IMG/VR virus record: IMGVR_UViG_3300043436_002011 | Span: 1 to 25,644 of that record | Strand: one strand, 5' to 3' | Source: a virus | DNA: 25,644 nt | Shown: positions 3,367 through 20,970 of the stretch, piece by piece | Numbering within the stretch: position 1 is the first letter of the stretch | How the letters are laid out: every line of letters begins with the position of its first letter | Made by a program: the position numbers and the translations under genes | The notes under the pieces: generated by a model | The model's input: only the letters and a program-made list of their open reading frames with translations | What the model was told of the DNA's origin: nothing | The model's database searches: none

Positions 3367-5552
3367 AGTGATGCGCTTGATTTCATTGAATTAACACGGT
3401 TTTGTGTGTTTGTCATATCGGTTTCACTTACAACCGCCGTTACTGTAATGTTTTGACCATTCCCACCATTTGCCCCGCCAGCGTTTTGATTGTTTGCATT
3501 GCCACCGCTACCGAACATATTAAATATTGGTGTTGCGTTTGCTTGTGGTTCACTTACCGACGAACTTGGTGTTGTTGGTGTTTGAGTTCCAGCACCCGAA
3601 TTAAATTGTTTACTTGCAATTACTCCGATTTGTGTTGCACCCGTTGCTCCAGCCAATGCCATTAAAAAAGGATTTGGAGAGGCTTTAGCGATTGCAACAG
3701 CCGTAGCCATACCGGCATTAACCAACGCGGCCGCTTTATCAATTGCAAACTTTTTACGCGCCGCTTGTTCTTGGCTTTTAGCATCTTTTTTTGCCGTTGC
3801 TACTGCTAAATCACCCAATGCAGTCATTAAACCCGTACTTGCATCAACATACTTTTGTATATTTTCAAGTTTAGAATTTAAACTATCCTTTGCTTTTTTC
3901 TTGTCGTATTCTGCAATGTCATCAATTGTCTTTGTTTGAATAGCTTTAAGGGCATCTTGATATGCTTGTTCGTCAATTAAGCCTTTATCTTTAGCCTCTT
4001 TTAATTTCGCTTCATCCTCAAGTTGTTTAGCCTCTAAGTCAGCAACATATTTCGCTCTTTCATCTGTATTAAACGTATTCATCCATGAAGCCAACTCAAT
4101 AGCGTTAGCCTTTTTCTTTTCATCGTATGCCAAGTCAATAGCATCTTCTTCGGCTTTTTGATTTGCTTTTAATACAGTTGTATCTAATTTGTTTTTTTCT
4201 GCGTCCTCAATTGCCTTTGCGTATTTTTCTTTTACCGCCAATTTTTCTTGGTCAATATCTGAAAGTCTAGAGTTTAGAAAGTCTTTATTAAGTTGGTCAA
4301 TTACGGCTTGAGCCTCCTCTGCTTTAGCAACTCTTTCAGTTTCGTATTTTAAATTTATTTCATTTTCAGCATTCTTTTGTGCAATTACAATTTGAGAATA
4401 ATCTTGTTTGTATTTAATAGCTTGGTCTATTTGCGCTTGGTATTTATCGTTGGAAATTTTTATTTCACGATCTTGAGCTGAAAGTAAGTTTAATTCATTT
4501 TCCCTTTGCGCTTCTTTGTTAAATTGAACCGCCTTTTGTATTTCTTGGTTTATTTTGTCTTGATTCTTTTTTCTTGTTTCGCTCGCTTTCTTAGCTATTT
4601 CGGCATTGTCTTCTTCTTCTTTTTTCTTTCTCTTTTTCTTATCGTCTTTTGTTTTTTCTTCAAAAAACGTAACATCCGCGTATGATTGTTTTACAGCTAA
4701 TCCGCTTGCTTTAGCCTTATCGTAAAGGGCTTGTATTTCTGCTTGGTCTAAATCTCCTTTTAGAGCTGCAGCTTTAGCCGCATCCATGTCAGCTTTATAT
4801 CTTGCTTTTGCCGTATTTACAATTAACCAAACTTTTTTACGTTCTAAATCCTCAGTACTTTTACCTTGAAGCTCTGCTATTCTTATTTCATTATCAATAT
4901 CTTGAACAACTGATTTTGTTCTTTCTTCTTGAGCTTTTGCAACTTTTTCGGACGCGTCGGCTTGTGCTTGTGCTGCATCCTCTACGGCAAAGTTTGTTAA
5001 ACCAATCCAATCTAAAAAGTCTTTTATTCCTTGTACAACAAAGTCAATAACGTCTCCTATCGCCTTGAAAATAGTTTTTAAAATGCCTAATTTATCTAAT
5101 AATTTAACTATTCCAACACCTATCAAAACAATAACTCCAGCGATAAGAAATAAAGGATTTGTTAGTATTGCCTTACCAACAGTCATGAAAGTACTTCCTA
5201 ATTGCTTTACGCTTCCTATTGCATCTTTAAACGTAATTGCTTTGGCTGATTTAGCAAACAAGTTTGCACCCTGAACCACACGGTCAAAATCCATAGACAT
5301 AAGACCAGCACTAATTTCCCCTAATGAGTTAGAAACTCTTTCAAACTTTGACCCTGTAGCTATTGCATTAATTTGCTCATTGATTTCTGCCATTGCATCC
5401 TTAAGATTAGCAGCTCGTTCTTGAAGCGCATCAAAGTCTTTTGGGTCGGTTGCTTCTCTAAGAGCTAACTTTGTTTGTTGAAGCTCTCTCCTAAGATTGA
5501 CTACGCCGTCAATGTTTGTTCTTATATCAATGTCTATTACTTTGTCTGCCAT
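3363..5552 (-). CDS. Tail tape measure protein
   Basis: This 729-residue protein has the make-up of a tape measure, which sets tail length and passes through the membrane during DNA entry. The N-terminus (MADKVIDIDIRTNIDGVVNL, then RRELQQTKLALREAT) is helical. A hydrophobic section of about 60 residues starts near residue 127 (AILTNPLFLIAGVIVLIGVG). A long charged coiled-coil zone runs from about 200 to 590, with KKKRKKKEEED in it. A second Ala-rich hydrophobic patch follows (AAALVNAGMATAVAIAKASP), then a Gly/Asn linker and a short tail. Using the usual 0.15 nm per residue, the tail would be roughly 110 nm, a family-based estimate. It overlaps the upstream 927-residue tail protein by 16 bases and the downstream completion gene by four. 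Confidence 0.8.
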   Translation of the reverse strand: MADKVIDIDIRTNIDGVVNLRRELQQTKLALREATDPKDFDALQERAANLKDAMAEINEQINAIATGSKFERVSNSLGEISAGLMSMDFDRVVQGANLFAKSAKAITFKDAIGSVKQLGSTFMTVGKAILTNPLFLIAGVIVLIGVGIVKLLDKLGILKTIFKAIGDVIDFVVQGIKDFLDWIGLTNFAVEDAAQAQADASEKVAKAQEERTKSVVQDIDNEIRIAELQGKSTEDLERKKVWLIVNTAKARYKADMDAAKAAALKGDLDQAEIQALYDKAKASGLAVKQSYADVTFFEEKTKDDKKKRKKKEEEDNAEIAKKASETRKKNQDKINQEIQKAVQFNKEAQRENELNLLSAQDREIKISNDKYQAQIDQAIKYKQDYSQIVIAQKNAENEINLKYETERVAKAEEAQAVIDQLNKDFLNSRLSDIDQEKLAVKEKYAKAIEDAEKNKLDTTVLKANQKAEEDAIDLAYDEKKKANAIELASWMNTFNTDERAKYVADLEAKQLEDEAKLKEAKDKGLIDEQAYQDALKAIQTKTIDDIAEYDKKKAKDSLNSKLENIQKYVDASTGLMTALGDLAVATAKKDAKSQEQAARKKFAIDKAAALVNAGMATAVAIAKASPNPFLMALAGATGATQIGVIASKQFNSGAGTQTPTTPSSSVSEPQANATPIFNMFGSGGNANNQNAGGANGGNGQNITVTAVVSETDMTNTQNRVNSMKSSASL

Positions 5553-17510: not shown

Positions 17511-18150
17511 AGTTTTGTGCTTTAGTGATTAATTGATCGAATTTTTCTCTAAGTTTTTCAGTTGACTGGATATTCTGTTTCCAAAATAAATCCTTTTTGA
17601 GTAAGTCAAAGACAAGTAGCATTTCGTCGCGCGTTCGGTTATCGCTAGTCGCAAGTAATCGAATCGGAGTAACACATCGTTTGTAAGTAAGTTTGTCTAG
17701 GTGTACCCAGCGCACATCTAAATCAATTGCGTTCTGTTGGAATAGTTGAAAGAAAGCATTGGCAACATTGAAATAATCAATTTGGTCTTGTGGGACGTCT
17801 GAAATGATAATTTCGGACATAAGATATTTCCCTTTCTCTTTCTCTTGTACTTGTCCTTTCTCTTTCTCTTGTACGGCAGGGGCTACCATACCCCCTTGCG
17901 TACCCCCTACGGTAGGGTCAAACATAGGGTCTTTAGTTTTATCAAAATATCCTTTTGTTTGTGAGTAAATAGAATGACTTTGAGATATGTACGCAAATTT
18001 AGCCATACCAGTTAATTCAGTATCAATATTCTCAAATTGCTTTTTTAGGATAGCATCGTAAAATTGTAGCCTATCTTTGTCGTTTAATTCTTTTCCAATC
18101 TCATAGTAGGAAAGAAAAAAATTAAATGCTTTACGTTTCGATTTACTCAT
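17449..18150 (-). CDS. Replication initiator-like protein (DUF6291-like N-terminus)
   Basis: This 233-residue protein is read from ATG 18150, beginning MSKSKRKAFNFFLSYYEIGK, then ELNDKDRLQFYDAILKKQFE. This N-terminal pattern, with the helix GMAKFAYISQSHSIYSQTKG, resembles the DUF6291-type domain on phage replication proteins. A linker with two QEKEKG units follows, then a C-terminal helical domain with YFNVANAFFQLFQQN and later RDEMLLVFDLLKKDLFWKQN, plausibly a DnaD-like or helicase-loader part. A frame extension of 12 codons to ATG 18186 would lie inside a leader hairpin, so the shorter start is preferred. It heads the replication/NinG unit. Confidence 0.65.
   Translation of the reverse strand: MSKSKRKAFNFFLSYYEIGKELNDKDRLQFYDAILKKQFENIDTELTGMAKFAYISQSHSIYSQTKGYFDKTKDPMFDPTVGGTQGGMVAPAVQEKEKGQVQEKEKGKYLMSEIIISDVPQDQIDYFNVANAFFQLFQQNAIDLDVRWVHLDKLTYKRCVTPIRLLATSDNRTRDEMLLVFDLLKKDLFWKQNIQSTEKLREKFDQLITKAQNYGKTDKRVTSEPYDLSCFDD
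17831..17874. repeat. 24-base tandem repeat in the linker
   Basis: Two copies, 20 bases identical, begin at 17831 and 17855. The 24-base period keeps the frame and encodes VQEKEKG twice in the replication protein. It is a short charged linker. Confidence 0.9.
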
Positions 18151-18151
18151 T

Positions 18152-18275
18152 AGTGCATGTTTATTAATTGCAAAAGCCTCGTTCAACTTTCAGGCATGCA
18201 CTCCCTAATCATCAAACAAGGCTTTAAATAACTTCTTTTGGTTTATACTGAATAAAATGTGCATCTATTATTCAG
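18152..18275 (-). promoter_or_regulatory. Structured leader of the replication gene
   Basis: In minus-strand RNA order, a first hairpin pairs CTGAATAA (18268-18275) with TTATTCAG (18248-18255), with ATGCAC in its loop (18259-18264). A second has an 11-pair outer stem AAAGCCTTGTT/AACGAGGCTTT (18215-18225 with 18173-18183, one G-U), followed by an inner TTAGG/CCTGA stem (18204-18208 with 18190-18194) and loop GAGTGCATG. The loop's AGTGCATG (18195-18202) is exactly complementary to CATGCACT at 18152-18159, just before ATG 18150. It also pairs over six bases with loop 1. Pairing to the initiation region could block translation. The leader starts after the -7 element at 18286. All pairs are read directly; the regulatory meaning is inferred. 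Confidence 0.55.
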
Positions 18276-18285
18276 AACCGTGAAA

Positions 18286-18293
18286 CAAAGATA
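18286..18293 (-). promoter_or_regulatory. Bacteroidota -7 element for the replication unit
   Basis: TATCTTTG on the minus strand matches TAnnTTTG exactly, ten bases after the end of the helicase-methyltransferase gene. Predicted transcription begins near 18279, giving a leader of roughly 130 bases. No TTG at usual spacing. Confidence 0.5.
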
Positions 18294-18302
18294 GTAAATT
18301 AA

Positions 18303-20486
18303 TCAATCGAAAAGCGTTAAAGTAGAGTTTTTTTCTTCAACGCAATCCTTATGGTTTTTTGCATTTAAAGTAAAATAACTTTCTTTCAATTCAATTGATA
18401 TTGATTTACGATTCATTTTTAAAGCGCAAAATCCCTCGCTACCAATACCTCCAAATGGACTTAAAACTGTTTCCCCCTCATTTGAGTATAAATGAATGAT
18501 TCTTTCAATTGTATCTAACTGAAGCGGGCAAATGTGTTTTTCATCGTTTCCGTCACGCCCTGAACGGTATTGCAAAGTTCTTGAATAGTCAATATCATAC
18601 CAAACTGGACTGGCGTATTTTTGCCAAAGGTCAACTGGTAAATAGTCTTTCTGACTTGAGTCTTTATCTTGATGCGTAATTGGAACTAAATTTTCCCCCT
18701 CGTTTCTGAAAAATAAAACGTAGTCAGGAATACCTACCCTAGTCATTGAACTATCTTTTTTGATAGTTTTATGAAGTAATCCTAACGCTTTTGTTCTTTG
18801 CATTTCAGTTACTGGATTTTTCCAAATAGTAACACGTGAATGATAAATGAATCCCATTTCTTGAAACCAATCAATTAACATTCCTGAAAAGTCACGTAAA
18901 CCGATATACCCCTCTTTACCTTTTTGAATTGGAAGATCCATTACGTGAATACCACAAATACGCCCGTCTTTCAAAACTCGTTTTAATTCAGGAATAAGGA
19001 ACTTAAAATGTTGCTCAAATTGTTTGTAATCTGAAACGTTACCCATATCCTCCTCTTTATCTGAATAAACATATAATTCAGCGAATGGAGGACTAAAAAT
19101 TACTAAGTCTGCTATATTGTCAGGTAGTTTCGCAGTTTCTTGAACGCAATCACCATTTATAACATGGTAATCGTTTGTTTTTACTTCTTTATTTTTCACG
19201 GTAAATTTACTTTTATTTGATTTATAATTCGTTTCAGCAGAGTATTTACTCATTTCTGAAATCATTTCTTTGTGTCTTTGACCTTTTTCAATAATTGTTT
19301 GTCTTACGTTAATTTGGCTTTCAGGAATCAAAATATGAACTTTTACTTTCTCTTTTTGACCAAATCTATAACAACGTCTAACGGCTTGATAAAACGCTTC
19401 AAATTTGAAATCATAAGACATAAAAACCATATTATGACATTGTTGGTAATTCATACCAAATGAAGCGATTGAAGTCTTTGTTACCAATACTCTAAATTCT
19501 TCGTCAGAAAACCCGTTTAAATGTTTTGCTTTATATTCAGGACTGTCAGAACCTTGAACATTTACGCAGTCGTCAATCAACTTTGAAACGGTATCGGTTT
19601 CATTATTTTTAAGCCCCCAAACAATCCATTGTTCATTATTTGAATTAACGAGTTCTAACGTCTTTTCAATTCTTTTGTCAAATGAACGTTGTAAATCTTT
19701 ATGTAAGTCGGTAGCACTTACTGCAACATCTCCAAATAAAGTATTTGTATTGTTTTCAACTGGTATAATATGCTCGATGTATTCAATTTCAGGTAAATTA
19801 TAACCGTTCATTGTGAAACCTAAAGTTTCAGGATTATCAACAGCAATAGACCACGTACATACATAGTTCCAAAATGTATCTTTTGCGTGCTTTCTAAGTC
19901 TCCATTTTGAAGTTTCCCCACCGTCATGAACAAAAAACATTGCAAGCATTTCAAGATAAGACATTGCGCCCAAAAATTCAGAGTGTTGACCTAATTCCAT
20001 ATGATCGTTTGGACTAGGCGTAGCAGTACAAGCTAATTTGTACGGAGTATTTTTAAAAGTCTCAATAATTAAGTTTGAAAGTTTACCGTCTCGACCTTTT
20101 AAAATTGAACTTTCATCAAGAATAACACAACTATATTTTGAAGTATCAATATTTTTCAATTGTTCATAATTGGTAACATCCATTACTTTCATATTGATGC
20201 CGAATTTTTTACCCTCTCTTTCAGTCTGTTTTGTAACCGCCAAAGGTGCTAAAATTAAAGCTGGCATATTTGTTTTCTTTGATACTGCATCTGCAAATGA
20301 TAATTGCATCAAAGTTTTACCAAGTCCACAATCTGCAAATATTGCAAAACGACCTTTTTGTAATGCAGTTTTTACAATGTACTTTTGAAATTCAAATAGA
20401 TTTGAGTTCAATTCATTTTCATCGAGTTCAAAACCTGAACTGATAAATGATTTTTTCTTTGTTTCTAGGAATTTGTTATAATCCAT
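18303..20486 (-). CDS. SNF2-type helicase fused to DNA methyltransferase
   Basis: This 727-residue protein is read from ATG 20486 (MDYNKFLETKKKSFISSGFE). An N-terminal extension of 35 codons to 20591 would start within five bases of the -7 element and is coded by the leader's inverted repeats, so it is rejected. The helicase part has a Q-like LFEFQKYIV, Walker A DCGLGKT (52-58), LDESS (D124/E125), TATPSPN (154-160), and motif VI QAVRRCYRFGQ (367-377). The methyltransferase part has catalytic SPPF at 465-468 and SAM-binding SPFGGIGSEG at 676-685; the order IV then I fits a beta-class enzyme making N4-methylcytosine or N6-methyladenine. No nuclease motif is seen. It probably moves along and methylates phage DNA, protecting it from host restriction. 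Confidence 0.85.
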   Translation of the reverse strand: MDYNKFLETKKKSFISSGFELDENELNSNLFEFQKYIVKTALQKGRFAIFADCGLGKTLMQLSFADAVSKKTNMPALILAPLAVTKQTEREGKKFGINMKVMDVTNYEQLKNIDTSKYSCVILDESSILKGRDGKLSNLIIETFKNTPYKLACTATPSPNDHMELGQHSEFLGAMSYLEMLAMFFVHDGGETSKWRLRKHAKDTFWNYVCTWSIAVDNPETLGFTMNGYNLPEIEYIEHIIPVENNTNTLFGDVAVSATDLHKDLQRSFDKRIEKTLELVNSNNEQWIVWGLKNNETDTVSKLIDDCVNVQGSDSPEYKAKHLNGFSDEEFRVLVTKTSIASFGMNYQQCHNMVFMSYDFKFEAFYQAVRRCYRFGQKEKVKVHILIPESQINVRQTIIEKGQRHKEMISEMSKYSAETNYKSNKSKFTVKNKEVKTNDYHVINGDCVQETAKLPDNIADLVIFSPPFAELYVYSDKEEDMGNVSDYKQFEQHFKFLIPELKRVLKDGRICGIHVMDLPIQKGKEGYIGLRDFSGMLIDWFQEMGFIYHSRVTIWKNPVTEMQRTKALGLLHKTIKKDSSMTRVGIPDYVLFFRNEGENLVPITHQDKDSSQKDYLPVDLWQKYASPVWYDIDYSRTLQYRSGRDGNDEKHICPLQLDTIERIIHLYSNEGETVLSPFGGIGSEGFCALKMNRKSISIELKESYFTLNAKNHKDCVEEKNSTLTLFD

Positions 20487-20498
20487 AATTTTTAAATT

Positions 20499-20584
20499 AA
20501 AAAAGCCACTCAAATTTGTAACAGCTTCGACCTTGTTACGCCTTTGAATGGCTCTAAACTTTTTAGATTCTATAATGTCGAAGC
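20499..20584 (-). promoter_or_regulatory. Structured, terminator-like leader of the helicase-methyltransferase
   Basis: In minus-strand RNA order the leader holds four elements. First, GCTTCGAC at 20577-20584. Second, a small hairpin TCTAAA-aag-TTTAGA (20553-20567). Third, AGCCATTCAAA (20543-20553), pairing with TTTGAGTGGCT (20504-20514, one G-U). Fourth, GTAACA/TGTTAC (20534-20539 with 20518-20523) continuing that stem. Six U follow the long stem (20499-20504), as in an intrinsic terminator. The apical loop contains GTCGAAGC (20524-20531), the exact complement of the first element, so a pseudoknot or an alternative fold is possible. The region lies between the -7 element and ATG 20486. This could be an attenuator or a riboswitch-like control; an alternative is a DNA-level palindrome such as an origin or operator. 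Confidence 0.6.
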
Positions 20585-20595
20585 GAATCATTTGG

Positions 20596-20619
20596 CAAAT
20601 ATACTAAAACTTTTTAATT
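20596..20619 (-). promoter_or_regulatory. Promoter for the helicase-methyltransferase, repeated element
   Basis: On the minus strand AATTAAAAAGTTTTAG is followed by TATATTTG (20596-20603), matching TAnnTTTG. The 24-base block is identical at 23 positions to 22648-22671 upstream of another unit. There is no TTG at usual spacing. It lies partly over the end of the helix-turn-helix gene. Confidence 0.55.
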
Positions 20620-20970
20620 GTCTAGCGTTTTTATCAATTTCATTTCAAAATTTGTGCATTGATTTCCGTCGGTTCCCAACATATTCATTTTTCTAATTGG
20701 AATTTGACCGCTTGCAATAAACCACATCCAATCCTTTTGAAACGTTTGTTCGGGAGTGTCATTGAAAATATGCGAGGTGTTTTCCAAATGTCGAATGCTT
20801 GAAATATTGCATCTGAAAACTTGCATTAATTCTCGCTTGCTATAACCTTGCTTTCTCAAGTGAACAAATACTAGTTTCTTCATTGTTACCAAGTAACTGA
20901 AACGATATTGTTCATGGTTTCGTGGATTAAAATACTCGATGTATTTATCTAGTGGCTCTTTATTTTTCAT
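20614..20970 (-). CDS. Helix-turn-helix protein (DnaA C-terminal-like?)
   Basis: This 118-residue protein has FSYLVTMKKLVFVHLRKQGY at about 24-43 and then SKRELMQVFRCNISSIRHLE at 44-63. It forms a clear helix-turn-helix, with spacing that recalls the DnaA C-terminal or replication-repressor type. It may bind the phage origin or a promoter. It overlaps the upstream gene by 11 bases. Just after its stop lies the promoter of the helicase-methyltransferase gene, which suggests it might regulate that gene. Confidence 0.6.
   Translation of the reverse strand: MKNKEPLDKYIEYFNPRNHEQYRFSYLVTMKKLVFVHLRKQGYSKRELMQVFRCNISSIRHLENTSHIFNDTPEQTFQKDWMWFIASGQIPIRKMNMLGTDGNQCTNFEMKLIKTLDN

Follow-up and report, generated by a model that had tools for sequence, protein, structure and literature searches.

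A two-hairpin leader with competing loop pairings: a candidate RNA switch ahead of a replication-initiator gene in phages of Bacteroidota

What controls a phage replication-initiator gene whose start codon is preceded by the exact complement of an upstream hairpin loop? The question is raised by a viral sequence from IMG/VR (record IMGVR_UViG_3300043436_002011, positions 1 to 25,644; this whole stretch of 25,644 nt is referred to here as the window). On the minus strand of the window, the loop of the second of two leader hairpins, AGTGCATG, is exactly complementary to CATGCACT just ahead of ATG 18150, and it is also complementary over six bases to the loop of the first hairpin. To our knowledge, RNA regulation in Bacteroidota phages has been little described. 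Comparison of related sequences places region 18293-18150 in a family of leaders that recurs in Bacteroidota phages, and we consider the chances about even that it acts, close to the promoter, as an RNA switch for expression of the initiator.

Anatomy of the leader and its gene

The gene downstream of the leader (Table 1) has PHROG matches to 2514, a DnaD-like helicase loader (3.4e-15), and to O-like replication initiation (2e-11). TTG 18186 was considered as an upstream start and rejected, because the family alignments begin near the N terminus given by ATG 18150. Within the gene, a 20-nt direct repeat at 17831-17874 encodes a repeated QEKEKG stretch.

Table 1. Coordinates of the two leaders and of the genes that follow them in the window
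Feature	Position	Strand	Basis or remark
Promoter box TATCTTTG (consensus TANNTTTG)	18286..18293	-	Sequence; Bacteroidota-type -7 box
Hairpin 1 (stem 8 bp, loop 12 nt)	18248..18275	-	Fold; co-varying stem columns in the related GCAG class
Loop-1 word ATGCAC (copy A)	18259..18264	-	Complementary to loop 2
Linker from hairpin 1 to hairpin 2, A/U-rich, 22 nt		-	Sequence
Hairpin 2 (9-nt loop on an inner stem, then a purine-rich internal loop and a long outer stem)	18173..18225	-	Terminator-like
Loop-2 word AGTGCATG (copy B)	18195..18202	-	Complementary to copy A and to the start copy
Start-site copy CATGCACT	18152..18159	-	One base (A18151) before ATG 18150-18148
Replication-initiator/DnaD-like helicase-loader gene, 233 aa	17449..18150	-	PHROG matches
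Second leader, same family, without start copy	20499..20603	-	Covariance model, 56 bits (R1 search); 63 bits, E 6e-10 (later search)
Second leader, promoter	20603-20596	-	
Second leader, hairpin 1 with GCTTCGAC	20589-20566	-	
Second leader, hairpin 2 with GTCGAAGC	20553-20504	-	
Helicase-methyltransferase gene, start ATG 20486	18303..20486	-	Pfam N6_N4_Mtase and helicase C-terminal domain; PHROG DNA helicase

The twofold complementarity of loop 2 proposed in the original prediction is exact, although the gap before the ATG is one base and not two, and hairpin 2 is longer than had been implied, with an outer stem of ~14 to 15 bp and an inner stem of ~5 bp on either side of the internal loop. 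The hairpin is followed by a short U-tract (TTTT) and ends 13 bases before CATGCACT. The fold energy of the leader corresponds to z = -2.7. When the 25 bases around the start were shuffled, an 8-nt complement to the loop arose with p = 2.6e-4, and shuffling of loop 1 gave a 6-nt complement with p = 5e-3; both matches jointly were seen in 0 of 300,000 shuffles. The two alternative duplexes have calculated energies of -9.0 (loop 1-loop 2) and -12.7 kcal/mol (start-loop 2) in the window, compared with -9.0 and -13.8 kcal/mol in the relative L003, and lie within ~2.2 kcal/mol of each other in the remaining leaders that carry a start copy. These similar energies, together with the co-variation of the three segments in relatives described below, support, as anatomy, the predicted competition of loop 1 and the start region for loop 2.

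Two points speak against an attenuator in the window copy: its U-tract is short, and a simple terminator scan of 18000-20800, which admits loops of 3 to 8 only, found no terminator. The covariance models of Rfam 15 gave no match to the window at E <= 1, and BLAST with the leader DNA returned chance-level matches only. The reading frame that opens in loop 1 (ATGCAC..., 19 codons long in the window) was also considered as a leader peptide and rejected, as the L003 version stops after 6 codons and the ATG is absent from most loop words. For the predicted pairing, homologues are a stronger proof than shuffles.

A second leader of the same kind precedes the helicase-methyltransferase gene, whose true start is probably ATG 20486 rather than that of the longer open reading frame that reads through the leader. 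The original prediction had treated the initiator leader as independent of the methyltransferase "attenuator." This holds for pairing specificity and otherwise fails: by their sequences, the two belong to one family and differ in their loop words.

A family of kissing leaders

The members of this family share a plan rather than a sequence: the promoter box TANNTTTG, hairpin 1, an A/U-rich linker, and a terminator-like hairpin 2 with a U-tract, usually ending 8 to 23 nt ahead of a start codon. Three rep-operon loci of very different letters follow it, with complementary loops GCGTGGAAAC/GTTTCCACGC (L004), GCTCCTAC/GTAGGAGC (L005), and GGTTTGGCG/CGCCAAACC (L006). With a strict scanner requiring the promoter box, two hairpins, complementary loops, and a U-run, 21 of 844 promoter-like sites scored at least 23, compared with 0.55 in shuffles, near-identical contigs being counted separately.

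We then used covariance models. Model R1, made from seven leaders structured by hand, with linkers and loops trimmed, is blind to loop-loop pairing. In the first locus set it recovered three further distinct leaders (L015, L033, and L016, which also occurs as L054), and the loops were complementary in all three. In 80 NinG-bearing viral contigs, R1 gave 43 matches at E < 0.1; relaxing the limit to E 2 raised this to 53, and every one of them lay on the coding strand, as did the matches in two other model searches. In cultured phages, model R2 detected six leaders: three in Flavobacterium phage hattifnatt9-1 and one each in Flavobacterium columnare phage FCV-1 and the phages Danklef_1 and Freya_1 of Polaribacter. 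All six show loop complementarity of 7 to 8 nt. The carriers among cultured phages thus infect Flavobacterium and Polaribacter, and a 50-kb Staphylococcus phage stretch had no model match. At least one match was present in 27 of 39 whole viral records, with a maximum of three per record.

The pooled nonredundant set comprises 101 leaders with 56 different loop words; it is a nonrandom sample, since R2 and part of the pool derive from R1 matches and R1 was trained on scanner finds. Loops 1 and 2 match over at least 6 nt in 97% of these leaders versus 16% of mismatched (noncognate) pairs, and over at least 8 nt in 59% versus 0.9%. In some members, loops of 6 to 7 nt are fully complementary. A U-run of at least 6 is found in 86 of the 101, and 91 begin with TANNTTTG, partly by construction, as the box is in the model. 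Weak members of the family are probably being missed: in L139:32534-32622, a subthreshold match (E 1.6) with 8-nt loop complementarity (CCGCCAAG) lies before a gene for a beta-lactamase-fold protein.

The internal loop of hairpin 2 is recurrent and purine-rich (GGAU/UGAA, or AGUA/GAA in the GCAG class), and may shape the hairpin for kissing. Such a recurrent element would also suit a platform bound by a protein of the phage or its host, either an antiterminator or a Rop-like binder of kissing complexes. The put element of phage HK022 is a two-hairpin antitermination RNA with a conserved sequence contacting RNA polymerase, and the present leaders resemble it in placing two hairpins near the start of early phage transcripts, before early operons. 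Unlike put, however, they are hypervariable in both loops and stems, with conservation limited mostly to the promoter, the U-tract, and the internal loop, and their loops pair together; a protein platform thus appears quite improbable.

The family is apparently undescribed. A search of Rfam with L090, L111, and L020 gave only two subthreshold matches, neither of them on a leader, and no account of such leaders was found in a literature search of open-licence papers.

A start-site copy before initiator genes

Most leaders of the family lack the copy of the loop-1 word that abuts the initiator gene of the window. In the first sets (68 leaders), nine carry such a copy, 6 nt or longer, downstream of hairpin 2 and ahead of the ATG; when the words were permuted between these leaders, the count averaged 0.13 and never exceeded 2 in 2,000 permutations. 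In the pooled set, the copy is present in the sense orientation in 16 of 98 leaders and in the antisense orientation in none (permutation means of 0.44 and 0.20, respectively). All 16 leaders with a start copy are followed by a replication-initiator-like gene, versus 22 of 85 others (Fisher p = 1.4e-8, an optimistic value because the seed proteins came from loci with a start copy and relatedness was ignored).

The words themselves differ among orthologues (ATGCAG, GTGCAG, AGGCAG, AAGCAG, GAGCAG, GTTGCAG, ATGCAC, ACGGTCA, and CTTCGAC, among others), and the covariation search called for in the original prediction found concerted changes in the two loops and the start copy. In an alignment of 19 leaders, which are related, so that the counts are not independent events, columns 19/74/108 read A-U-A (8 leaders), G-C-G (7), or U-A-U (4) with no exception. 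A second position is variable as well, and two sequences retain A-U at the start copy although their loop 1 now forms a G-U pair through drift. Of the six positions in the kissing and start pairings, the other four are invariant. Kissing pairs are 100% standard, and start pairs are 100% standard at all six positions. The covariation score was 0.466 for the hairpin stems plus the kiss (0.137 shuffled) and 0.343 for the start pairing (0.111 shuffled), and no shuffle reached either value.

An orthologue survey yielded 22 "triples," about five of which resemble AT-rich chance matches (2.6 expected). Homologues that keep the gene and lose complementarity at the start had been named beforehand as evidence against the switch. 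Many such cases exist, with the kissing leader and the gene kept and the start copy absent (L185, L186, L220, L224, L231, L232, L238, L239, and L244), yet the start-copy subclass still co-varies; in other orthologues the leader sits one gene further upstream. The start copy is therefore an add-on to the kissing leader. Kissing between loops 1 and 2 is the core of the family, and pairing of loop 2 with the start is an elaboration specific to initiator genes.

A short word in inverted and direct copies beside an initiator gene might also be read at the DNA level, as repressor operator repeats or as a replication origin, the latter having been suggested in the original prediction. The family matches, however, are strand specific, the words lie in loops of co-varying stems, and the third copy is always in the sense orientation. 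A search of 17700-18700 showed no iteron array, and copies of the leader also stand ahead of operons without an initiator. We therefore set the origin aside and regard any DNA-level function as very improbable.

The leader as a movable module

Leaders and genes occur in several combinations. L001 has the leader and gene of the window preceded by a different upstream gene end, while L003 has a near-identical leader and a gene with a different N-terminal half. Polaribacter phages Danklef_1 (L138:28556-28656) and Freya_1 (L139:36634-36734) carry an identical leader before different genes, and this leader therefore marks a recombination boundary. Leaders with the word AAGCAG precede two types of protein, and members of the family are also found before helicase, endonuclease, and small-ORF operons.

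Such modularity, with near-identical leaders before different genes (the window and L001 versus L003, Danklef_1 versus Freya_1, and the AAGCAG leaders), is compatible with a passive structural leader, in which the kissing hairpins would protect the 5' end of the mRNA or insulate the gene from upstream transcription, the start copy being incidental. This would leave unexplained why start copies are sense only, are confined to initiator-like genes, and co-vary with both loops, and we consider it unlikely.

Other RNA-like elements were noticed before helicase genes. In L038 and L039, a tRNA-like stretch whose GGTTCAATTCC resembles a T-arm lies ahead of the helicase-methyltransferase, within ~200 bases upstream of the start of the helicase match at 5001; ARAGORN called no tRNA. 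In L023, a strong hairpin (GGGGGTGTAA...GTTGCACCCCC) outside the leader family lies within ~100 bases upstream of 3858, directly before a helicase gene.

A proposed switch and its relation to known systems

On/off switching of initiator expression is what we infer from the competing pairings. Loop 1 would be transcribed first and could capture the emerging loop 2 by kissing, which would leave the start site free of loop 2 and perhaps disturb the terminator; the initiator gene would then be expressed. Were loop 1 unavailable, loop 2 would pair with the start region and hide the ribosome landing site, and hairpin 2 with its U-tract would attenuate transcription, turning expression off. Loop 1 might be sequestered in trans, by loop 2 from a second leader RNA with matching specificity. 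Many Bacteroidota phages probably use a leader switch of this kind to control DNA replication.

The proposed switch has features of several known systems. In ColE1, replication is controlled by RNA I and RNA II, whose short hairpins carry complementary pairing loops, the two RNAs being transcribed from opposite strands. In the leaders, too, loops of short hairpins are predicted to pair and replication is the putative target, but both loops reside in one RNA from one strand. Like attenuators with intrinsic terminators, the leaders place a hairpin and a U-tract between promoter and first gene; unlike them, they have no conserved leader peptide or ligand-type aptamer that we recognised, and the alternative partners are a kissing loop and a start site.

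The closest layout is that of phage P4, in which the CI RNA pairs with the upstream seqA and the downstream seqC, causing premature termination of replication-gene transcription (PMC4825925). The order seqA-CI RNA/seqB-seqC has its counterpart here in a word that occurs twice, with its complement between the two copies in a hairpin loop, all within a replication-gene leader, and termination, the outcome described for P4 in that work, is also the output proposed here. This word-complement-word layout occurs in the window and in 16 of 98 leaders in all, most family members lacking it. In contrast to P4, the complement lies in a terminator-like hairpin and the last copy abuts the ATG; kissing is general, the words are hypervariable, and there are up to three leaders per phage.

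It is tempting to extend this likeness to a trans-acting immunity or copy-control RNA, and we entertain this as a tentative possibility. A terminated leader of ~110 nt would accumulate, and its loop 2 would pair in trans with loop 1, and with the start copy if present, of newly made leaders that share its specificity; this would force termination or block the translation of replication genes in the same or a superinfecting phage. The A-B-A order upstream of replication genes, B lying in a hairpin loop, is as in P4, and words acting as specificity types would explain both the 56 words among 101 leaders and the different words borne by listed leaders of one phage. On the other hand, cis pairing would normally outcompete trans pairing, word diversity is also expected if complementarity alone is constrained, and loop-1 words are not enriched before the starts of other genes on the same contig (1 seen versus 1.3 expected).

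Implications

The leaders would define a regulatory module common to many phages: a promoter, a kissing pair, and a terminator-like hairpin, joined before initiator genes by a start copy. The private loop words allow a clear prediction of specificity, and the cultured carriers (Flavobacterium phages FCV-1 and hattifnatt9-1 and Polaribacter phages Danklef_1 and Freya_1) make the leader testable. The 56 loop words also offer RNA design a naturally occurring collection of kissing pairs. More speculatively, and with rather low confidence, Bacteroidota phages may possess a widespread, hypervariable RNA self-recognition system, in which leader RNAs with the same word silence one another in trans and the start copy serves as a second lock on the initiator gene. 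If this is true, a private loop word for each early operon would provide superinfection immunity or replication copy control by RNA alone.
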